Shown in pieces: positions 9,355-60,847 of a DNA stretch of 64,000 nt. Under the pieces are notes generated by a model. That model was not told the DNA's origin. It made no database searches and saw only the letters and a program-made list of their open reading frames with translations. The first letter of the stretch is position 1, and each line of letters starts with the position of its first letter. Source of the stretch: Paenibacillus sp. FSL H8-0537 (GTDB lineage Bacteria; Bacillota; Bacilli; Paenibacillales; Paenibacillaceae); contig NZ_CP150290.1 of assembly GCF_038051995.1 (NCBI RefSeq), positions 4,578,001 to 4,642,000 on the forward strand, in the 5' to 3' direction. A program made the position numbers and the translations under genes.

Positions 9355-9760
9355 AACAACCTCCAAAATTTTTTTGTTTAATGAATCTACAAATTCTATG
9401 AAATAAACATGTAAAAATGTGGCTCTTTTGGATAATTTACCTCCTCGCTAACAACATACCACATTGCATCAATTTTGTTAACATTTTTTTACATCGAGAT
9501 GGAGTGAATTTTTGAAGGGATGATCAGTTAAAATAATTGCAAGCAGCAGCGATAGACTTTTCCTAATCACATTGCTTCTATATGCTTATATGTTACTCAT
9601 CAAAAACCATTCGAACATAGACAGGTCGTAGGAGGGATGTACTCAAAATTCTGAATATAATAAAGCATCTACCTAAGTTTAATAGAATAATGGAGATTAT
9701 ATTTTGAATTGTCTATAGAAGAGATTTTGCAACATAGCCTGAATAATCGGCTGACTGTAA

Positions 9761-9849
9761 AAAGAAAATAAAGTTTTAGACTGACGAGGTTGATTCAACA
9801 CGGTTGGTCGGGTGGGTCAGCCATTTCAGTCTAAAACTTTATTTTCTTT
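9761..9849. repeat. Perfect 24-bp inverted repeat
   Basis: The arm at 9761-9784 is exactly complementary to the arm at 9826-9849 (core GTTTTAGACTGA / TCAGTCTAAAAC), around a 41-nt GC-richer loop. There is no U-run, so it is not a standard terminator. It may be back-to-back ends of a lost insertion sequence, or the stem of a structured RNA. Confidence 0.6.
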
Positions 9850-51440: not shown

Positions 51441-53780
51441 TTAGCTGCCGCTCAACAACGCAGCTTGCGGCGTCACCTCATATATAGTTATATTGCTGCC
51501 GCCTCCGCCGATGCCTCGGTAGCTGCTGTCTTCCGCATTGCTGTTTCCACTTGTCGTTAGCCATTCGCTGGCTGCGACCTGCTGACCATACGAAGTAATC
51601 CACTTCGTCAGCTCATTATTATTGCCGCCTCCACGGCCCCCTTGTGAAACAAGGAAATATTTCAGCTCCCCAGCGGCCACGAGCGCCTTCAGCCGGTCTA
51701 CCGACAGGACGGGATCGGAACCGGAATAACCGCCGAGTATAATCACATTTTCACCGGAATCAATGATATATGGCGCTGCGGTCGAATAGCTGTTCGTCGC
51801 AAACAGGTACTTCTCGCCTGTATGGTGCGCCTTCAAAAAAACAAGCGCTGCTTCATTAAGCGGCTCATCGCGAGAAGAGGCATTCGTCTGATCAGGTCCT
51901 GCCTCTGGCAGCTGGCTGCTCTGGCCGTATACGATAGGTGTCGCCGCCCAGTAAGCTGGACCAATGAAAAGAACAAGCAGCCCGAGCAGCGCAATCAGAT
52001 TCACGGCAGGCTGCTGCCAGACTTTGCGGCGGCTCACCACATGTACTCCGTTTTGAACGCAAGCGCCGGCTTTCAAATATCCACCTTGCCCATACGGCTC
52101 GGTATCTGCACCAGCATTCGCCTCTGCTTCATAGCCTTCTATGCCTTCACTACCTTTACTGCTATTTCGGATAAATGACTTCGCTTGCTTCTGCTTCTTT
52201 AGCCGCCATGCAATAAGCAGCAGGCTTGCTGCCAATCCGCCAATTAGCACGGCAAGCGACCACCCGCTGCCAATTGTAGCGTCAAATGGCTGCATAATAT
52301 ACCATTCAAACCCAGCTGTTGTGGCAATTCCGAGTGGCAGCAGCCAGCCTGGCCAGCCAGCTCTGCTGCGATATTGGCCCCACAGCTCACCCCAGCCTGC
52401 TCCAAGCAGCGCGGCAATTGGAGGTCCCATCATAATTAAATAATAGGGATGGAAAAAGCCGGCGACGCTGAAAAACGCCATAACCGGCAGCAGCCACGCC
52501 AGCCAAAATAACGTTTCCTTATGCTTCATCGTCAAGTTGCGTCTGCGAATGCTCGCCAGCATGCCCACGCAGGCGACAAATACAAAAGGCAGGAACCAAC
52601 TCGCTTGACCCGACAGCTCCGCTTGGAACAATCGAAGCGGCCCTGCCGTACCTGTTCCAAACATGCCGCCTGATCCACCGCCTACAAAGCCGCCGCGAGT
52701 GCTCATGCCGTCCATACCGATGCCAGGCCAACCGTTAAAGCCACCAGCTCCAGCGCCTCCTCCGGCTCCTCCGCCATTATTGCGGTCCGCGCCCTGACTG
52801 TTTCCATCGCGATGGCCGCCAGCATCACCATCCAGCCCCTGCCCATCCTGCTCTACAGCTGCAATGCTGCGGTTGCCGCCTGGCACATCGCCGCTGAACC
52901 AGCTATTGACCACATTCGTCTGGGCAAAGGCTGTGTTTCCAATCGCTGGAAGCTGCTGCGGCCCCATCATCGAGCCGGTACTGCCTCCGCGATTTCCGGT
53001 CAGCCTTGAAAGCCCGTTATATCCGAATGCCAGCTCCAACACGGAGTTTGTCTGGCTGCTGCCCACATAGGGCCGATTATCTGTCGATATAGAATCAACT
53101 GTCACCGCCCAGGACAAGGAAACAACCAGCATAATAGCGGTCGCTCCTGCCAGCAGGCTGATTTTCTTAAACCACTTGCCCTTCCACGCCATTAAAGCAA
53201 ATAAATAAAACGCCGGAAGCACCATGTAGGCCTCCATCATTTTCATATTAAAGCTGACGCCTATGACGGCAAAAGCGCCAATCAGCCAAAGCGCCTTGCC
53301 CTGCTTCGTTCCGCGAAATAACAGCCAAACCGCAAGCAGCAGCGTAAACACGAGCATGCTGTCGATATTATTCGTCCGGCTCACTGCAACCGCAACCGGC
53401 ATCGTTGCCATCGCCGCAGCTCCAATGCGCGCCGCCGCAAGTCCAAAGGACGGTTTGAGCAGCACATACAGCAAAATCGTCGAGCCCATACCCGCTAACG
53501 CTTGGGGCAAAATCACGCTCCAGCCATGCAGGCCCAGCACATAGGCAAAAGCCGTCTGTATCCAGAACGTTACCGGCGGCTTGTCAACGGTTACGAAGCC
53601 GCCAGAATCGACCGTTGCAAAGAAAAAATTGTGGAAGCTTTGCAGCATGCTGGCGACCGCAGTCGTGTAATACGTATTGACATGGTCATCTGTCCAAATT
53701 AAAAATCCATTCAAAAATGCCGAAACGAGGATACCTATCATTAATATTGCATCTAATCGCTGTTTTTTTATTGGTGCCAT
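51441..53780 (-). CDS. GT39-type membrane glycosyltransferase (YkcB-like)
   Basis: A 779-residue polyprenol-phosphate-sugar-dependent transferase with about eleven membrane helices. N-terminal part: LIWTDDHVNTYYTTAVASML, then DSGGFVTVDKPPVTFWIQ, the Asp-bearing first extracellular loop of PMT/ArnT enzymes. A Gly/Asn/Asp/Met-rich extracellular stretch of about 100 residues (around 300-390: NGGGAGGGAGAGGFNGW, GGGSGGMFGTG) interrupts the usual order. C-terminal periplasmic-type domain: FLKAHHTGEKYLFATNSYST, VILGGYSGSDPVLSVDRLK. It probably adds a sugar to a surface polymer or protein. An 11-bp-phased operator precedes it, as it does the VTC operon. Confidence 0.9.
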   Translation of the reverse strand: MAPIKKQRLDAILMIGILVSAFLNGFLIWTDDHVNTYYTTAVASMLQSFHNFFFATVDSGGFVTVDKPPVTFWIQTAFAYVLGLHGWSVILPQALAGMGSTILLYVLLKPSFGLAAARIGAAAMATMPVAVAVSRTNNIDSMLVFTLLLAVWLLFRGTKQGKALWLIGAFAVIGVSFNMKMMEAYMVLPAFYLFALMAWKGKWFKKISLLAGATAIMLVVSLSWAVTVDSISTDNRPYVGSSQTNSVLELAFGYNGLSRLTGNRGGSTGSMMGPQQLPAIGNTAFAQTNVVNSWFSGDVPGGNRSIAAVEQDGQGLDGDAGGHRDGNSQGADRNNGGGAGGGAGAGGFNGWPGIGMDGMSTRGGFVGGGSGGMFGTGTAGPLRLFQAELSGQASWFLPFVFVACVGMLASIRRRNLTMKHKETLFWLAWLLPVMAFFSVAGFFHPYYLIMMGPPIAALLGAGWGELWGQYRSRAGWPGWLLPLGIATTAGFEWYIMQPFDATIGSGWSLAVLIGGLAASLLLIAWRLKKQKQAKSFIRNSSKGSEGIEGYEAEANAGADTEPYGQGGYLKAGACVQNGVHVVSRRKVWQQPAVNLIALLGLLVLFIGPAYWAATPIVYGQSSQLPEAGPDQTNASSRDEPLNEAALVFLKAHHTGEKYLFATNSYSTAAPYIIDSGENVIILGGYSGSDPVLSVDRLKALVAAGELKYFLVSQGGRGGGNNNELTKWITSYGQQVAASEWLTTSGNSNAEDSSYRGIGGGGSNITIYEVTPQAALLSGS

Positions 53781-53840
53781 CGTTCAGCCGCCCTTTCACT
53801 TCCGTCTCTTGCTTCACTATGTGAGATTGTGCGCCTTTTC

Positions 53841-53879
53841 CCTGAAACCCGAATGAAGCAAAGCTGAAAATTTGCTTAA
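53841..53879 (-). promoter_or_regulatory. Phased TTCAGC-like half-site array upstream of the GT39 gene
   Basis: On the minus strand TTAAGC (53879-53874), TTCAGC (53868-53863), TTCATT (53857-53852) and TTCAGG (53846-53841) follow one another at exactly 11-bp steps, 61-99 bp before the GT39 start. The same element and spacing is found upstream of the VTC operon. OmpR/PhoB-family regulators bind such tandem repeats on one DNA face. A lone TTCAGC also occurs at 53903 before the response-regulator gene. Confidence 0.65.
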
Positions 53880-53960
53880 AACCATAAAAATCAGATGAAA
53901 CTTTCAGCGAAACAGATAATAATGAAAGAAGCATGCGTTTGCAAAACTGGAGATGATAAA

Positions 53961-54644
53961 ATGTCGGTTAAAGGAATTAAGCTGCTGCTTGTTGATGACG
54001 AGCCGCATATTGTGCAGTTTTTGGAGCTTGGCTTGCTGAATGAAGGCGCGGATATTAGGACAGCCAGCAATGGCGAGGAAGCGATCATAGTCGCTAGCGA
54101 CTTCAAACCGCATGTTGTCATTTTGGATGTGATGATGCCGGGCATGAATGGCTTTGAAGTATGCCAGGCACTTAAGGCAACGGGCGATAATATCGCCATT
54201 ATTATGCTGACTGCCAAGGACGAAACGCAGGATCGCGTGAAGGGGCTGAACATTGGCGCTGACGATTATATCATAAAGCCGTTCAGCTTTGAGGAATTGC
54301 TTGCCCGCATTCAGGCGAGGCTTCGCAATCAGTTTCCGAATTTGCTCGGGGAAGTTGTATACGGTCCGTTTTGCATCGACGATCTGCGCAAGGAGCTGTC
54401 CTACATGGATAAAATGCTGGAGCTTTCGCCTACCGAATATGAGCTGCTGAAATATATTGTGATGAATAACGGCATTGTACTGAGCAAGGCGCTTATTTTG
54501 GACAAAGTATGGGGTTATCATTTTCGCGGCGAGGAAAACATTGTGGAGGTGTACATCCGTTCGCTGCGTGAGAAGCTGCAGGACAAAGAGCACAGACTTA
54601 TTCGTACACTACGCGGCTCTGGCTATCGCATGGATTTTCCATGA
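53961..54644 (+). CDS. OmpR/PhoB family response regulator
   Basis: A 227-residue regulator: receiver domain (KLLLVDDEPHIVQF with acidic pocket; phospho-acceptor Asp in HVVILDVMMPGMNGF; MLTAKDETQDRVKGL; Lys in DDYIIKPFSFEELLAR) and C-terminal winged helix (LSPTEYELLKYIVMNNG; VEVYIRSLREKL). ATG 53961 has GGAGATGATAAA before it, so the longer open frame from 53895 is rejected. It overlaps the histidine kinase by 4 nt. Likely to bind the phased arrays near the GT39 gene and VTC operon. Confidence 0.95.
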   Translation: MSVKGIKLLLVDDEPHIVQFLELGLLNEGADIRTASNGEEAIIVASDFKPHVVILDVMMPGMNGFEVCQALKATGDNIAIIMLTAKDETQDRVKGLNIGADDYIIKPFSFEELLARIQARLRNQFPNLLGEVVYGPFCIDDLRKELSYMDKMLELSPTEYELLKYIVMNNGIVLSKALILDKVWGYHFRGEENIVEVYIRSLREKLQDKEHRLIRTLRGSGYRMDFP

Positions 54645-56143
54645 TGGGCCGAAAAGCTCCGCTGCTGCTTCGTCTCTTAAAGCCCGAATCGCTTCGCTAC
54701 CAACTGCTCAGCCGCTCGCTGTTCGTACTGGCAGGGCTGCTTCTGTTAATTGGAACGCTGCAATACGTTTTTATGAAGGATTTTATTTATAATAATCGCG
54801 CTGAGGCATTGGAAGCGCAAATACAGGCGATGCCTCCCCTGTGGTATATGGACAACATACGCGCTTACCAAAAAAAATCACCCTATAAAGGTGATGCAGC
54901 ATCGCCGGAGGACCCAAGCAATATGCCTATCATTACTCAGCCAAGGTTATCTCTTGCCTATGTTAGCAATACAGGAAAACGGACGGTACTGACGATTAGC
55001 AGTGAAACTTGGACTCCAGAGCTGAGCCAAGAAGAATATATGAAAATTTTAAATGATTTGAAAAAACATCGCGAGGTCAGCTATCGGCTGCTCAGCAACA
55101 GCGAAGGGGCACAGCAGCTTGTCGTCTTTCGGCTGGCTGGACCGCCAGATTCTCCTGACGGACTCTTTCAAGCGGGCAACGACACGGACTTGCTGCAAAC
55201 GGTACTTGCGTATCAGCTCGCGATTTTCGCTGGGCTGTCTATTCTTGCCTTGGCAGGAGGCCTATCACTGTATTTGCCGATACTGCGCAAGACGCTTTCA
55301 CCTCTGTCGCGTATCGTGAAAGCAGCCCAGCGCACCGATGCCGTCAATCTCACAGAACGGCTTCCTATATCGCAAGGTCAGCAGGAAATCGATCTGCTCT
55401 CGGAAGCATTCAACGGCATGCTCGGCCGGCTGGAAAGCTCCTTCGAGACGGAGCGGCAAACGACGGAGCGGATGCGGCGCTTTGTTGCCGACGCTTCGCA
55501 TGAGCTGCGGACACCACTCACTTCTATCCATGGGTTTCTGGAGGTGCTGCTGCGCGGTGCCGCTACAAATCCTGAACAGCTGCACCACGCCTTAACGAGC
55601 ATGAAGCTGGAATCGACGCGTATCAACAAGCTCGTCGAGGATTTGCTGCTGCTAGCCAAGCTTGATCAGGCGCCGGAGCTCGTTAAAGTGGATACGAGCA
55701 TTGGCAAACTCATTCATGAGTTGGAGCCGCAGCTGCATATTTTGGGCGGAGAGCGAGAGGTGCGAATTGATGCTTCTGTAAGCATATGCGGACGCTGCAA
55801 TCCCGATCAGCTAAAACAGGTGATGCTTAATTTATTTTCAAATGCTGTCCAGCATACCGATGCCGATCTGGGAAAAATATCGCTAAAGCTCGCTAAAGCC
55901 GGAGCCTATGCCGCCATCTCCATTACCGATAATGGAACGGGCATTAAGCCGGAGCATCTCCCCCATTTGTTTGAGCGTTTTTATCGCAGTGAATTTTCAC
56001 GCACCCGCTTGAGCGGCGGAGCAGGCCTTGGACTATCGATAACGCAGTCCATCGTTGAGGCGCACGGCGGCACGATTGAGGCGGCCAGCATTGTCGGCGA
56101 GGGAAGTACTTTCACCGTCAAGCTGCCGTTAGAGGATGCTTAG
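54641..56143 (+). CDS. Two-component sensor histidine kinase
   Basis: A 500-residue membrane kinase: first membrane segment LLSRSLFVLAGLLLLIGTL, an extracellular sensor of about 140 residues (SGTGKRTVLTIS-type PDC-like region, no assured family), second segment AIFAGLSILALAGGLSLYL, HAMP domain, phospho-acceptor His in FVADASHELRTPLTS, N box NLFSNAVQH, G1 DNGTGIKPEHLPHLFERFY, G2 GGAGLGLSI. Together with the preceding gene it makes a complete two-component system. Input signal unknown; its sensor is extracytoplasmic and the neighbours are envelope enzymes. Confidence 0.95.
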   Translation: MMGRKAPLLLRLLKPESLRYQLLSRSLFVLAGLLLLIGTLQYVFMKDFIYNNRAEALEAQIQAMPPLWYMDNIRAYQKKSPYKGDAASPEDPSNMPIITQPRLSLAYVSNTGKRTVLTISSETWTPELSQEEYMKILNDLKKHREVSYRLLSNSEGAQQLVVFRLAGPPDSPDGLFQAGNDTDLLQTVLAYQLAIFAGLSILALAGGLSLYLPILRKTLSPLSRIVKAAQRTDAVNLTERLPISQGQQEIDLLSEAFNGMLGRLESSFETERQTTERMRRFVADASHELRTPLTSIHGFLEVLLRGAATNPEQLHHALTSMKLESTRINKLVEDLLLLAKLDQAPELVKVDTSIGKLIHELEPQLHILGGEREVRIDASVSICGRCNPDQLKQVMLNLFSNAVQHTDADLGKISLKLAKAGAYAAISITDNGTGIKPEHLPHLFERFYRSEFSRTRLSGGAGLGLSITQSIVEAHGGTIEAASIVGEGSTFTVKLPLEDA

Positions 56144-56164
56144 CTTGCTTAAGAGCGCATATGC

Positions 56165-56220
56165 AAACAGGGTGCCCCACACAGCCATGAACTGGCCTCC
56201 GGGACACCCTGTTTTATTTT
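56165..56220. terminator. Terminator between kinase and phosphoesterase genes
   Basis: AACAGGGTG(C)CCC pairs with GGG(A)CACCCTGTT around a 20-nt loop, followed by TTATTTTT. It overlaps the end of the convergent phosphoesterase gene by a few bases. Confidence 0.8.
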
Positions 56221-57479
56221 TCACTTTGCAGCACGAACGTATCCAGCTTGTTGCCTTCCACATCATAAGCCTCGTATGTCAGCTTATCTCCTTCGATGGT
56301 AATGCCGGCAAACAGTTGCTTATGATTTTGAAAATGAACCTTATGATAAAATTGATCCTCTTTCTTCTCATTAAACTTCTGCCCCGCCGCGTTAGTCACG
56401 ACATAGACGGTGCCGCTTGAAGTGCTGATGACACCCTCTCCATCCCCTGTCACCTTTCCATCCTTCAGTGGATATGATCTTGCATATTCATGATTGTGCC
56501 CCTGAAGCACGAGATCAACTCCATATTTGTCAAACAGCTTAACCCAATCATCGATTTTCTCGTATTGATTACCGGCATAAGGACCACGATGCACCGATAC
56601 GATAATCCAGCGTTTATCTGTAGCTGCCAAATCCTGTTCCAGCCACTTCGTCTGCTCCTTTTTGTTTGATTCCGTGTTCAGCATGATGAAGTGCGCCGGG
56701 CCATAGTCGTACGAATACGTCGTTCCAGCGATCGAGCCGTCCGCCCCACTCTCTGGCAAATTGAAATGGGATACAAATTCATCCGCGTTGCCATCAACCT
56801 CGTCGTGATTTCCTGTAACTGGCATTAACGGAAAGCGTGTTACCCACTGCTGCGCCTTGCCAAAAAAGTTTTGCCATGCGATTTCATCATCCGGATTTTC
56901 CGTCAAATCGCCGTTATGCACAATAAACTGCGCACCAGGGAAGGTCTTAAACGCCTGATCCAGCGTATTTCCCCACAGCTCGAAATCCTGCTCCGTTATG
57001 CCTTGCGAATCCGTCACATTAATAAAAGTGAAATGATCTGCATCCTGCGCCTCCGTCATAAAATGGAACGCTTCACTCCAGCCATTCTCGCTGCCATCGC
57101 CCACACGGTACGTATAGGCTGTGCCAGGCGACAGCCCCGTCAGCTCCAGCTTATGCACCCCTCTTATTACGCCATTGCCCGTATTCAGCGTTGTTGTCTT
57201 CCCCTCGATACGACTGACCTGTATCCCCTCGCCCTCGCCAGACAACATTCCCGCATCCATTCCTTCCATCCATTCCACCACCGTTCCTGACTGCGGATTA
57301 TCAGTGAACCAAGTGAATGCGCGGCTCGTTGCCGCATCCTCCTTAAAGGTCGTAACGACCGCATAAGGCTTACCAGCAGCCTTATCTGTGTTCCCATCTG
57401 ATTTCAGCCACTCTATTCCTGCAACAACGAGCAGGAGCAAGAGGCAAAGGGCAATCATCCATATCCATTCCTTTTTCAT
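56214..57479 (-). CDS. Purple-acid-phosphatase-like metallophosphoesterase, secreted
   Basis: A 421-residue protein: an N-terminal membrane anchor or signal (WIWMIALCLLLLLVVAGIEW), a fibronectin-like PAP N domain (GVHKLELTGLSPGTAYTYRVG) and a calcineurin-like phosphoesterase domain. Metal motifs are visible: NVTDSQG (unusual; D in place of GD), FIVHNGDLTE, MPVTGNHDE, IVSVHRGPY, and VLQGHNHEYAR. ATG 57479 (MKKEWIW) has GAAGGAGATT and is chosen over 57542. It is divergent from the VTC operon and may hydrolyse a phosphate product outside the membrane. Substrate not known. Confidence 0.9.
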   Translation of the reverse strand: MKKEWIWMIALCLLLLLVVAGIEWLKSDGNTDKAAGKPYAVVTTFKEDAATSRAFTWFTDNPQSGTVVEWMEGMDAGMLSGEGEGIQVSRIEGKTTTLNTGNGVIRGVHKLELTGLSPGTAYTYRVGDGSENGWSEAFHFMTEAQDADHFTFINVTDSQGITEQDFELWGNTLDQAFKTFPGAQFIVHNGDLTENPDDEIAWQNFFGKAQQWVTRFPLMPVTGNHDEVDGNADEFVSHFNLPESGADGSIAGTTYSYDYGPAHFIMLNTESNKKEQTKWLEQDLAATDKRWIIVSVHRGPYAGNQYEKIDDWVKLFDKYGVDLVLQGHNHEYARSYPLKDGKVTGDGEGVISTSSGTVYVVTNAAGQKFNEKKEDQFYHKVHFQNHKQLFAGITIEGDKLTYEAYDVEGNKLDTFVLQSEK

Positions 57480-57556
57480 CACAATCTCCTTCCCCATGAA
57501 GTTCGTACCCATGCTGCCTTTTACGATAACGCTCCCGCACAAGGCGCGTCAAACGT

Positions 57557-57606
57557 TTCACCTGGCATTCAGCAATCTTTCAGCTGACATTCAGCAATCT
57601 TTCAGC
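57557..57606 (+). promoter_or_regulatory. Five-unit 11-bp-phased TTCAGC operator upstream of the VTC operon
   Basis: TTCACC (57557), then TTCAGC at 57568, 57579, 57590 and 57601: five half-sites at exactly 11-bp steps. The last ends 9 bp before a -35-like TTAACA. This is the textbook layout of an OmpR/PhoB-family activator site, and matches the array before the GT39 gene. Confidence 0.75.
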
Positions 57607-57615
57607 GGGCACTCA

Positions 57616-57643
57616 TTAACACATCAGTATCTGAATTTACAAT
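57616..57643 (+). promoter_or_regulatory. Candidate promoter of the VTC-DUF4956-CotH operon
   Basis: TTAACA (57616-57621), a 16-bp spacer, and TACAAT (57638-57643). It follows directly after the phased operator. About 70 nt of leader precede the VTC gene ATG. Confidence 0.5.
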
Positions 57644-57712: not shown

Positions 57713-58426
57713 ATGCAGCAAAATTTGAAGTTCCGGCATGAGCTGAAATTTATTATCAACCAGCATCAATATTTCATTATTCGGCAGCGGCTCAAAAATA
57801 TGATGCAGCAGGACGCAAATGTCGGCGATACAGGCGAATACCACATTCGAAGCTTGTATTTCGACGATGTGAACAATAAAGCGCTGCATGAGAAGCTTGG
57901 CGGCATACGTGATCGAAGCAAATATCGGATTCGCATTTACAATACGCAGGACAAGGTCATCCATTTTGAGAAAAAAATCAAATTCAAGGATTACATTGCC
58001 AAAGTCAAGGAGCCACTTACGCGCGCTATGTATGACCAGATGATGGCTGGCGACTACGAGGTGTTCAATCGGCCCGATAAGCCGCTGCTTATGGAAATTT
58101 ACAATGAGATGAAGTACCGGCTGCTTCGTCCGAAGGTGATCGTGGATTATGTGCGCGAGCCTTACGTTTACGAAAATGGCAATGTGCGGATTACATTCGA
58201 CAAAGATTTGCGAACAGGCCTGCATGCGCTGGACATTTTTGACCCGAATCTTGATCCCGTCATTGCCCTGGAAGATAACCGGATGATTCTTGAAGTGAAA
58301 TTCGATGAATACATTCCGGCCTCTATAAAAATCGCGCTTCAGCTCGAAGGGCTGAACCGCACCTCGGCATCCAAATACGTAATTTGCCGCAAATATCTTA
58401 AATTCAACACTTGGGAGGATTTTTAA
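57713..58426 (+). CDS. VTC-domain protein (polyphosphate polymerase fold)
   Basis: A 237-residue protein matching the VTC domain, the triphosphate-tunnel metalloenzyme fold of yeast Vtc4. Opening FRHELKFIINQHQYFIIRQRL has the basic strand; IRSLYFDDVNNKAL follows, then YRIRIYNTQDKVIHFEKKIKFKD with multiple tunnel Arg/Lys residues, RPKVIVDYVREPYVY, VRITFDKDLRT and LEVKFDEYIPASI with Glu/Lys. Tunnel residues look intact, so nucleotide- or polyphosphate-handling activity is plausible. It has no membrane segment; DUF4956 immediately downstream (3 bp) may be its membrane partner. GGAGGGAG precedes the ATG. Confidence 0.9.
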   Translation: MQQNLKFRHELKFIINQHQYFIIRQRLKNMMQQDANVGDTGEYHIRSLYFDDVNNKALHEKLGGIRDRSKYRIRIYNTQDKVIHFEKKIKFKDYIAKVKEPLTRAMYDQMMAGDYEVFNRPDKPLLMEIYNEMKYRLLRPKVIVDYVREPYVYENGNVRITFDKDLRTGLHALDIFDPNLDPVIALEDNRMILEVKFDEYIPASIKIALQLEGLNRTSASKYVICRKYLKFNTWEDF

Positions 58427-58429
58427 ACA

Positions 58430-59158
58430 ATGGAGACAACGACTACGGCAGCAGCAGCAACGACAGAAGCAGCGGAAACGGCAACCTCTTTTTCCGATAT
58501 TATTAAAAACTCGGTGATGAGCAACTTTACCTCCGATATTAGCATTTCAAAAATACTCATTACAATGGGCGTAGCTTTTCTGATTGGTTTCTTCATTTAT
58601 ACGCTGTACAAACGAATATTCAGCGGCGTGCTTTATTCCAAAAGCTTCAACGTCTCGCTCATCGGCATGACGATGGTTACAGCTATGGTCATTATAGCGA
58701 TCAACTCCAATCTGGTGCTCTCGCTCGGTATGGTCGGCGCATTATCCATCGTCCGCTTTAGAACGCCAATTAAAGATCCAACCGACCTGATCTTCCTGTT
58801 CTGGGCAGCCGTTGCCGGTATCGTCTCGGGTGCAGGCTTCTATACGCTCGCTGCTATAGGCTCTGTCATTGTCGGTCTCGTGCTCTTCTTCTTCGTCAAA
58901 GGCGGCTCGGTTGAGCAGCCGTACCTGCTTGTCGTCAACTGTGACAATGAAACGACTGAGAAGGAAATTCACGGCCGTCTAAACAAGCTCGTCAAGCGTT
59001 ACAATGTGAAGCAAAAAACCGTTACGCGCGGCAATGTGGAAATGACGATCGAAATTAGGCTGCGTGATCAGGAAGGCGCGTTTGTTAACCAGCTTTCCGA
59101 GCTTGAAGGTGTCAAAAATGCCGTCTTGATCAGCTACAGCGGGGATTATGTATCTTAA
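58430..59158 (+). CDS. DUF4956 membrane protein
   Basis: A 242-residue protein: acidic Thr/Ala-rich N-terminus, then three to four membrane helices (ISKILITMGVAFLIGFFIYTLY; IGMTMVTAMVIIAIN; LGMVGALSIVRFRTPIKDP; LIFLFWAAVAGIVSGAGFYTLA), followed by a cytosolic ferredoxin-like domain (EQPYLLVVNCDN..., MTIEIRLRDQEG). GALSIVRFRTPIKDPTDL is the DUF4956 hallmark, similar to the MgtC-type turn. Always found next to VTC and CotH proteins; function unknown. GGGAGG precedes the ATG. Confidence 0.9.
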   Translation: METTTTAAAATTEAAETATSFSDIIKNSVMSNFTSDISISKILITMGVAFLIGFFIYTLYKRIFSGVLYSKSFNVSLIGMTMVTAMVIIAINSNLVLSLGMVGALSIVRFRTPIKDPTDLIFLFWAAVAGIVSGAGFYTLAAIGSVIVGLVLFFFVKGGSVEQPYLLVVNCDNETTEKEIHGRLNKLVKRYNVKQKTVTRGNVEMTIEIRLRDQEGAFVNQLSELEGVKNAVLISYSGDYVS

Positions 59159-59176: not shown

Positions 59177-60847
59177 ATGAAGGCAAAAGCTTCAACCTTG
59201 CTTCTAAGTCTGTGCTTCCTCCTTCTGCTTCTCACCCTTACAGCCTGTACCAATGGTACAGGCTCTACTACAACGGAAGCAAGTGTTGTTTCTGATGGGG
59301 AGCAGACGCTGGATGAGACGGTATTTCCCAAGGACAAGGTTATTGACGTAAAAATTACAGTGGACAAAGATGATTTTCAAAATATGCTGGACAATGCCAG
59401 CTCCGAGGAATTTAAGGAAGCGACCGTCGATTACAACGGCCAAGTTTTCAATAATGTCGGCTTACGCACGAAGGGCAATCTAAGCTTGATCAGCGTCGTC
59501 AATAATAAAGATTCGGACCGCTACAGCTTAAAGCTCTCATTCGACGAATATGTTAATCAGACGATTGAAGGCGTTAGCAAAATCAATCTAAACAACAATT
59601 ACAGCGACGCCTCCTATTTGCGTGAGTTCCTTACCTATGAGCTTGCTGAAGCGATGGGCTTGCCAACCCCTAAATATTCCTATGTGAATGTGTATGTAAA
59701 TGGCGAGTTTTGGGGCTTTTACTTAGCCGTTGAGCAAATTGGCGAGGAATATTTGGAGCGTAACTTTGGCAACAGCTACGGTGCGCTTTATAAGGCAAAC
59801 GGCGGAACCGGCAGCGAGCTGAACTGGCTGGGTACGTTAAAATCATATACGGGGCTTGATCGTAAATCGGCTTCGTCCAATGATGATATTTTGATGAAAA
59901 TGCTCGATGAATTAAATAATGGAACGGACTATGACAGCGTTTTGGATGTACAGGAAGTGCTGAAGTTTATCGCCTTGAACACAGTCGCGGGCAATATGGA
60001 CAGCTACTTGTCGATGACAAAGCATAACTACTATTTATATGAGGATGATGGTCTGTTCTCGATTTTGCCATGGGATTACAATATGTCCTTCGGCGGCTTT
60101 GGAGGCGCAGGCGTACTCATTGATGAACCGACGTCAGGCAAACTGGCGGAACGGCCTCTCGTCGCAAAATTGCTGGCAGTAGATGAATACAAGGAGCAAT
60201 ACCACGCGATTATAAAAGAAATGATTGAAGGATATTTGGCAGACGATACCCTTGCTGCCCGTGTTAAAGAAATATCCGAGCTTATTTCTCCTTATGTAAA
60301 AGCGGACCCTTCCTCCTTCTATTCTTATGAAGAGTATGAGCAAGGCATTACGACGGTGCTTTCCTTTGCAAGCACGCAGGTAGCAAGCGTCACGCAGCAG
60401 CTCAACGGTATAATCCCCTCCTCTGGCGATGGCTCCGGAAGCGGCAGCAACGGCTTTGAAGAGGGCATGGGCGGTATGGGCGGCGGTTTCCCTGGTGGAG
60501 ACGGCGCTCCAAATGACGGGGCTAATGCAGCGGGGGGCAATGCTCCAAATGACAGTGCTAATGCAGCAGGCGGCAATCCTCCAGCTGATGGTGCTAACGC
60601 GGCGGGCGGTCAGGGCTTCGGTGGTGGTGGCTTTCCCGGCGGCGCTCCCGGTGGACAAGGCGGCATGATGGCGCCACCGAATGGCATGGATTTTGGCGGT
60701 ATGATGCCACCAAATGGCATGGGCTTCGGCGGTCAAAATGCCCAGCCCCAGGGCAGCATTTCGGAAGCTATTACTGCAGGCATCGCCTTAATCATTTTGA
60801 TCTTGTCGGGTGTTTTCGTTTTATTCTACAACCGCAGAAGGCTGTAA
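59177..60847 (+). CDS. CotH-kinase family lipoprotein with Gly-rich tail and C-terminal anchor
   Basis: A 556-residue exported protein: signal peptide LLSLCFLLLLLTLTAC (lipobox LTAC), then the CotH kinase domain (VIDVKITVDKDDFQNMLDN; VGLRTKGNLSL; YSLKLSFDEYVNQTIEGVSKINLNNN; GFYLAVEQIGEEYLERNF; KANGG; ILPWDYNMSFGGFG with the catalytic Asp region). CotH kinases phosphorylate Ser residues of spore or surface proteins. After residue 420 it becomes Gly/Asn/Met-rich with a 12-residue tandem repeat, and ends with a membrane helix ITAGIALIILILSGVFVLFY and a basic tail. Third gene of the VTC operon, 18 bp after DUF4956. Confidence 0.92.
   Translation: MKAKASTLLLSLCFLLLLLTLTACTNGTGSTTTEASVVSDGEQTLDETVFPKDKVIDVKITVDKDDFQNMLDNASSEEFKEATVDYNGQVFNNVGLRTKGNLSLISVVNNKDSDRYSLKLSFDEYVNQTIEGVSKINLNNNYSDASYLREFLTYELAEAMGLPTPKYSYVNVYVNGEFWGFYLAVEQIGEEYLERNFGNSYGALYKANGGTGSELNWLGTLKSYTGLDRKSASSNDDILMKMLDELNNGTDYDSVLDVQEVLKFIALNTVAGNMDSYLSMTKHNYYLYEDDGLFSILPWDYNMSFGGFGGAGVLIDEPTSGKLAERPLVAKLLAVDEYKEQYHAIIKEMIEGYLADDTLAARVKEISELISPYVKADPSSFYSYEEYEQGITTVLSFASTQVASVTQQLNGIIPSSGDGSGSGSNGFEEGMGGMGGGFPGGDGAPNDGANAAGGNAPNDSANAAGGNPPADGANAAGGQGFGGGGFPGGAPGGQGGMMAPPNGMDFGGMMPPNGMGFGGQNAQPQGSISEAITAGIALIILILSGVFVLFYNRRRL
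60506..60613 (+). repeat. 36-bp tandem repeat (three units) in the CotH gene
   Basis: Three in-frame units beginning at 60506, 60542 and 60578 encode APNDGANAAGGN, APNDSANAAGGN and PPADGANAAGGQ. Imperfect at DNA level, so not very recent. Confidence 0.85.

Follow-up and report, generated by a model that had tools for sequence, protein, structure and literature searches.

Two-component control of ykcB-type genes is already known in Bacillus subtilis, where, according to passages in two reports, the ykcBC operon belongs to the YclJ and YrkP regulons (PMC5836110, PMC7961091). In Clostridioides difficile, HexRK controls the glycolipid operon hexSDF; the passage describing it likens HexK to B. subtilis YrkQ and notes YkcB/YkcC in the YrkP regulon (PMC10128005). 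CotH, a polyphosphate polymerase and DUF4956 are described, in a passage on Gram-positive pel loci, as accessory genes of these loci (PMC7112168). Here we analyse a stretch of 64,000 nucleotides from Paenibacillus sp. FSL H8-0537 (contig NZ_CP150290.1, positions 4,578,001 to 4,642,000, hereafter the window), in which a response regulator and its adjoining histidine kinase lie between two arrays of 11-bp direct repeats. One array precedes a YkcB-like glycosyltransferase gene of family GT39, the other an operon encoding VTC-domain, DUF4956 and CotH proteins. It is probable, on the sequence evidence given below, that the regulator is a PhoP/PhoB-like activator that drives both the GT39 gene and the VTC-DUF4956-CotH operon, and that it is autoregulated in many relatives. 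The features concerned are these:

53841..53879, minus strand: GT39 operator, predicted from sequence, with four half-sites at 11-bp steps, starting at 53879 (TTAAGC), 53868 (TTCAGC), 53857 (TTCATT) and 53846 (TTCAGG)
53826..53831, minus strand: -10 box of the GT39 promoter (CACAAT); the last half-site starts 15 bp upstream of it
57557..57628, plus strand: VTC-operon operator, predicted from sequence, with seven half-sites at 11-bp steps, starting at 57557 (TTCACC), 57568, 57579, 57590 and 57601 (TTCAGC at all four), 57612 (CTCATT) and 57623 (ATCAGT)
57638..57643, plus strand: -10 box of the VTC-operon promoter (TACAAT); the last half-site starts 15 bp upstream of it
53961..54644, plus strand: response regulator of the OmpR/PhoB family, predicted binder of both arrays (receiver PF00072 and Trans_reg_C winged helix-turn-helix PF00486)
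54641..56143, plus strand: sensor histidine kinase adjoining the response regulator (HAMP, HisKA and HATPase by Pfam; alignment of 28 N-termini)
51441..53780, minus strand: GT39/GT-C glycosyltransferase gene, YkcB-like, predicted target (PMT_2, PF13231, E 1.1e-31; YkcB_C, PF24878, E 3.6e-29)
57713..58426, plus strand: VTC-domain gene of the polyphosphate polymerase type, predicted target (PF09359, E 6.2e-38)
58430..59158, plus strand: DUF4956 membrane protein gene of the VTC operon (PF16316, E 1.9e-9), beside VTC in 9 of 9 named loci
59177..60847, plus strand: CotH kinase-like secreted protein gene of the VTC operon (PF08757, E 1.3e-68), beside VTC in 9 of 9 named loci

An earlier, sequence-only reading of this DNA had reported five half-sites before the VTC gene and four before the GT39 gene, and all nine lie exactly where it placed them. 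Its extent for the VTC array was too short, since the register runs on through CTCATT and ATCAGT to give seven half-sites, and the -35 box that it proposed for this promoter (TTAACA, 57616-57621) overlaps the half-site that starts at 57612 and was rejected, since L004, G043 and G203, the nearest relatives, have TTTTCA in its place. The pattern of three TTCAGC half-sites each followed by five free bases, with at most three mismatches, has six matches in the window, all of them within the two arrays; 100 shuffled sequences gave a mean of 0.13 and a maximum of 1. Scored over four half-sites, the VTC array reaches 24/24 and the GT39 array 21/24, and the top score among 300 first-order Markov simulations of a 64-kb window, both strands considered, was 20, attained by four of them; this score also allows A as the third base, which was decided with the orthologues already in view. 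Both arrays have the form of direct-repeat operators at about 11-bp steps beside a promoter, as in OmpR/PhoB regulons, and the regulator has the receiver, Trans_reg_C domain and adjacent histidine kinase of a two-component system of this family. It falls under the cut-offs of all 25 NCBIfam models among the matches listed, including the named equivalogs PhoB (203 versus 296 bits) and MtrA (195 versus 300 bits).

The sequence-only reading had tied its fate to the conservation of the arrays before orthologous genes, and it withstood this comparison on both sides. The VTC protein is 97% identical to a protein of Paenibacillus algorifonticola (L004), which makes the source of the window a close relative of this species; it has a match at 1e-20 in 109 of 245 genomes searched across the family. 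By score, the matches fall into 80 close orthologues, of about 61% identity or more, and 44 more distant genes, and we read the upstream regions of all 80 and of 20 of the 44. An array of three half-sites in the orientation of the gene, scoring at least 15/18, precedes 67 of the 80 close orthologues and none of the 20 sampled distant paralogues. On the same 80 upstream regions, the reverse strand, periods of 10, 12 and 13, and the mirrored sequence gave no array, and a period of 9 gave one. The related genomes are not independent, and our counts and P values ignore relatedness. As for GT39, 102 of the 245 genomes have a match, 85 with an orthologue of the response regulator and 17 without. Among the former we examined 30 loci, the best-scoring of the 102 genomes, near-identical genomes included; all come from genomes with the regulator, and all 30 have a gene-directed array with at most five mismatches in 18. 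Among the latter we read 16 of the 17, leaving out a partial gene (G188).

The position of the arrays relative to the promoter is also constrained. We took 107 promoters selected for having arrays (67 VTC, 30 GT39 and 10 of the response regulator) and counted as -10 any hexamer with at least four of six matches. In 100 of the 107, a -10 falls into a single phase, at a distance of 15 bp, or 15 bp plus a whole number of 11-bp steps, from where the last half-site begins; each of the other ten phases is occupied in 1 to 19. A scorable -10 is present in 66 of the 67 VTC promoters, and the best one has this phase in 61 of them. All 30 GT39 promoters examined have an in-phase -10 if any in-phase site is counted, and 19 do if ties go to the first site. 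The consensus of 321 half-sites is CnTTMAGY.

The presence of the VTC array follows that of the regulator. Orthologues of the response regulator, accepted in the family at E up to 1e-85 with presence per genome taken by eye, occur in 168 of 245 genomes. They are found in 72 of the 80 genomes with a close VTC gene, and the array precedes this gene in 66 of these 72 compared with one of the eight genomes without the regulator (Fisher P = 4e-6; 2e-5 without G130). A second search in these eight genomes returned paralogues of at most 45% identity, and a partial orthologue in G130. The association is not merely one of linkage, because in G013 the regulator and the VTC gene lie on one contig at 0.65 and 2.63 Mb, 2 Mb apart. 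Genomes with an exact array (TTCAGC N5 TTCAGC N5 TTMAG, 17 bases) have the regulator in 41 of 42 cases, the other genomes of the family in 127 of 203.

The solved structure nearest to the regulator by sequence is that of Mycobacterium tuberculosis PhoP (E 8e-54), with which its predicted recognition helix aligns:

54537..54563, plus strand: recognition helix NIVEVYIRS of the response regulator, residues 193-201, aligned with PhoP residues 212-220

In the passage describing the PhoP-DNA complex, helix alpha-8 reads TCACAGC repeats separated by a 4-bp spacer (TCACAGC-N4-TCACAGC), N212 and E215 lying on the CAGC side, V213, Y217 and Y220 on the 5' side and S216 at the centre (PMC4832192). The regulator has N193, I194, E196, V197, Y198 and S201 at these six positions, so that N212, E215 and Y217 are identical, V213 is conservatively replaced by I, and S216 and Y220 are changed to V and S, respectively. 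The two residues that mainly read CAGC, N and E, are therefore kept, and the half-sites themselves (TCACAGC in PhoP, TTCAGC in the arrays) have CAGC in common but differ in their 5' part, TCA becoming TT (PMC4832192). Both are 11-bp direct repeats (PMC4832192), presumably bound in tandem here as well, and the changed residues may correspond to the changed bases. We do not claim orthology, and the targets of PhoP differ from those predicted here. All six contact positions are identical in 42 of 42 orthologues of the regulator (duplicates of one species included), and the motif N-[IVL]-V-E-x-Y occurs in one of 44 regulator loci scanned in the window's own genome (drawn from 135 matches: 36 whose helix could be aligned, plus another 8 weak ones).

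In many genomes outside the window's genus, the regulator would also activate itself. Within the family, 29 promoters of its gene were scored, a locus cut by the contig end (L054) being excluded; a forward array was found in 10, all of genus g18, and exact forward arrays precede the gene in genera g3, g5, g6 and g13 too. Eight of nine loci outside the family, and the one further locus inside it (L260, 1/1), combine a forward array with an in-phase -10; in 5 of these 10 loci a GT39 gene adjoins the regulator. This arrangement suggests positive autoregulation outside the window's genus. Within that genus, a reverse array scoring at least 15/18 is found at the regulator in 6 of 15 loci. In genomes of this genus without a GT39 match (L055, L057, L058 and L073), the region upstream of the regulator still has a pair in reverse orientation, such as TTCAGCAAACTTTCAGC, whose own strand shows no clear in-phase -10; such a pair may act on the regulator's promoter from the inverted orientation.

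From these observations we propose the following mechanism. The kinase, which has two transmembrane segments (judged by inspection) and an extracytoplasmic domain, would phosphorylate the adjacent response regulator. The latter would then bind the 11-bp direct repeats (CnTTMAGY, period 11) as head-to-tail dimers or oligomers, and activate transcription next to RNA polymerase, as PhoB and PhoP do, at promoters without a conserved -35. Responsive promoters would be those with the spacing described above, the first base of the -10 box lying 15 bp, or 15 bp plus whole 11-bp repeats, beyond the point where the final half-site begins. The clear targets in the window's genome would be the divergent GT39 gene and, at a distance of 3 kb, the VTC-DUF4956-CotH operon, with envelope remodelling as the presumed output, and in many genomes outside the genus the forward array in the regulator's own promoter would add positive autoregulation. 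That both arrays are read by one OmpR/PhoB-family regulator, the one encoded at 53961-54644, acting beside RNA polymerase, as the sequence-only reading had it, is very probably correct given the conservation of the arrays, their co-occurrence with the regulator and their phase.

Several results weigh against this mechanism. The GT39 arrays are weaker than the VTC arrays, since all 30 reach 14/18 and 16 reach 15. Among 19 GT39 upstream regions from the 16 genomes without the regulator, four still reach 14 and one reaches 15, a comparison confounded because these homologues are more diverged. One genome (G235) has a strong VTC array yet no orthologue of the regulator, and six genomes have the regulator but no VTC array that scores; in four of these (G098, G059, G146 and G169), TTCATG/TTCACA/TTCAAA repeats stand in its place. 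In the window's genus, a forward array at the regulator is missing from all 15 scored loci, and 12 of 24 loci outside the order lack an array near it despite the same helix core. Finally, the in-phase -10 is weak or fails behind several other arrays: before an MSxSINxYxN protein (1/4), a secreted protein (1/3), a phosphatase (0/1) and two singletons (1/2).

The repeats of the array-less genomes form a pattern of their own. TTCATG-N5-TTCACA-N5-TTCAAA, with small variations, lies at about -85 upstream of VTC in G098, G059, G146, G169 and G130 (L212, L214, L217, L219 and L218). These five genomes are one subclade, four of them with a full orthologue of the regulator, and their repeats are possibly an altered half-site.

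The same regulator could bind the arrays and repress, or act both ways, by covering the -35 region. The last half-sites do cover the expected -35 position, and the window has TTAACA with a 16-bp spacer to TACAAT. Yet this hexamer is not kept in the three nearest relatives, and the fixed distance from array to -10 across unrelated genes suits an activator that replaces the -35, whereas a repressor would not need it. We regard repression, or action in both directions, as improbable. It is also quite improbable that a paralogous OmpR-family regulator is the main reader, the neighbouring one being a bystander. Such a paralogue would account for the array kept in G235, and the closest one in the genome (L014) has a partly similar helix, NVLEVYIAM. 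But the VTC array tracks this very regulator, arrays occur in its own promoter in other genera and families, and its helix motif is the only one of its kind among the regulator loci scanned. That the arrays are chance or tandem-repeat sequence without a regulatory role is hardly credible: two VTC half-sites do derive from a recent 22-bp duplication and two exact matches elsewhere (L109 and L114) resemble simple repeats, but the shuffled, Markov and reversed-pattern controls and the -10 phase all speak against it, and the fact that array, orientation and phase are conserved rules it out in general, leaving it tenable for single matches only.

In the window's own genome, a scan for the half-site pattern with at most three mismatches gave 21 matches, compared with 7 for the reversed pattern. 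Among the 15 that lie outside the two arrays, none convincingly has an array with both a -10 in phase and a gene behind it, and so the clear regulon of this genome consists of two promoters. The GT39 gene is the single match to PF24878 in this genome. One set of TTCATC repeats (6613292) was set aside, as it stands before a catalase gene beside another regulator. This locus (L099, G000:C1:6613292-6613319, minus strand, outside the window) has three TTCATC followed by TTCATG at 11-bp steps before the catalase gene (PF00199), and its array adjoins another OmpR-type regulator (L288, helix NVVDVHIKS), making a second, different pair of 11-bp array and regulator. A further candidate, L088, was dropped: no open reading frame of at least 40 amino acids starts behind its array, and by eye the stretch looks like the end of a gene on the opposite strand.

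Across the family, the exact pattern has 54 matches in 42 of the 245 genomes, and the reversed pattern has none in the same genomes. By our reading the 54 matches represent 46 separate places. Fifteen of these precede VTC genes and seven precede the regulator and are directed at it; three lie between the regulator and GT39, directed at GT39, and two precede second copies of GT39. The others stand before genes for FlxA-like proteins (three), the MSxSINxYxN protein (four), a receptor-type protein with dCache and HAMP domains (three; domains found in the two scanned), a secreted protein (three) and an alkaline phosphatase (one), with five further places, two of which (L109 and L114) we rejected for looking like simple tandem repeats. 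The best -10 is in phase before the FlxA-like (3/3), dCache and HAMP receptor (3/3) and second-copy GT39 genes (2/2); L118, also in phase, was not counted as FlxA-like, having no open reading frame of 60 amino acids behind its array. Similar arrays precede genes for FlxA-like proteins, the dCache and HAMP receptor, PepSY and YceI proteins in other genomes.

At three loci with the MSxSINxYxN protein (L108, L110 and L111), the array is followed by TTTCCGAT. This sequence resembles a -10 of the flagellar sigma factor (SigD). Together with the array that these loci have in common with FlxA-like genes, it makes a link to motility possible.

The regulator itself extends well beyond the family. It is present in 154 of 198 genomes of the order and, at 1e-70, in 46 of 250 genomes of the class, 25 of them outside the order. 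We read 24 of these 25 loci (G450 is not included): NIVEVY is kept in all 24, and an array of at least 15/18 lies near the regulator in 12. Reverse arrays outside the order precede genes for PepSY, PepSY_TM, YceI and FtsX/MacB proteins and a short-chain dehydrogenase, and a HlyD-type case (L259) was found within the window's order. The sequence-only reading had proposed an envelope regulon joined by shared arrays; the link by arrays holds, but the regulon appears older and broader than proposed, in view of the spread of the regulator over order and class and of the additional gene types behind arrays. The glycosylation, CotH phosphorylation and VTC activity that this reading ascribed to the regulon are putative, being taken from the names of the protein families. 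We lean, with some reserve, towards an old two-component system of the Bacilli that would combine an unchanging NIVEVY helix and a single operator grammar (TTCAGC-type repeats at 11 bp, -10 at +15 or whole repeat steps further) with a lineage-specific turnover of targets, among them GT39/YkcB, VTC-DUF4956-CotH, FlxA-like, the dCache and HAMP receptor, PepSY, YceI, MacB/FtsX and HlyD-type genes.

Two further observations concern the surroundings of the VTC promoter, which is divergent from one more gene:

56214..57482, minus strand: metallophosphatase gene, divergent from VTC (purple acid phosphatase N-domain and calcineurin-like domain by Pfam)

We considered this gene as a target of the array at 57557 and rejected it on the orientation of the array and the phase of its -10, both of which are toward VTC. 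It is probably not the target, because the array points to VTC and is kept in a locus of Paenibacillus vietnamensis (L006) with a phosphatase match of just 40 residues. In the latter (9687-9806), the two-component system directly adjoins the VTC operon, and that short match is all that is left between them. The 22-bp tandem duplication (57568-57606), which supplies two of the perfect half-sites of the VTC array, is absent from L004, G043 and G203; it makes the array longer than in these relatives and may be a recent adjustment of promoter strength.

If our proposal is true, this would be the first regulator that our searches turned up for the CotH, polyphosphate polymerase and DUF4956 module, and a regulon that can be read from DNA alone. 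It would give a predicted regulator and operator code to a widespread two-component system, of which we found no study, and would make the signal acting on the VTC-DUF4956-CotH module searchable by reporter. The strict rule relating array and -10 would allow regulon prediction in Paenibacillales genomes, and the match between changed helix residues and changed half-site bases, set against the PhoP-DNA complex, gives a concrete way to test how regulators of this family recognise DNA.

How, then, does this locus compare with the systems described? It resembles the YclJ and YrkP regulons in that a two-component regulator would control a YkcB-type GT-C glycosyltransferase, and differs from them in that VTC-DUF4956-CotH is not named among their targets in the passages concerned (PMC5836110, PMC7961091). 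Among 14 control genomes, PF24878 was found in B. subtilis only. HexRK is likewise a two-component system for lipid or glycan genes of the envelope, but its targets are hexS, hexD and hexF, and an operator array is not among the features that the passage describes (PMC10128005). The accessory set of the pel loci comprises the same three families that are contiguous in the window and kept together in nine of nine named loci here, but it also includes DUF4832, and the passage names no regulator for it (PMC7112168). No Pel family was found among eight proteins of the locus scanned with Pfam, a scan that was not a systematic search for pel. None of the passages on YclJ/YrkP, HexRK or pel loci ties a regulator to the VTC-DUF4956-CotH set, and we found no published description of this regulon in the open PMC literature, which covers few subscription papers. 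Systems of this kind are known; the regulon itself appears to be new.

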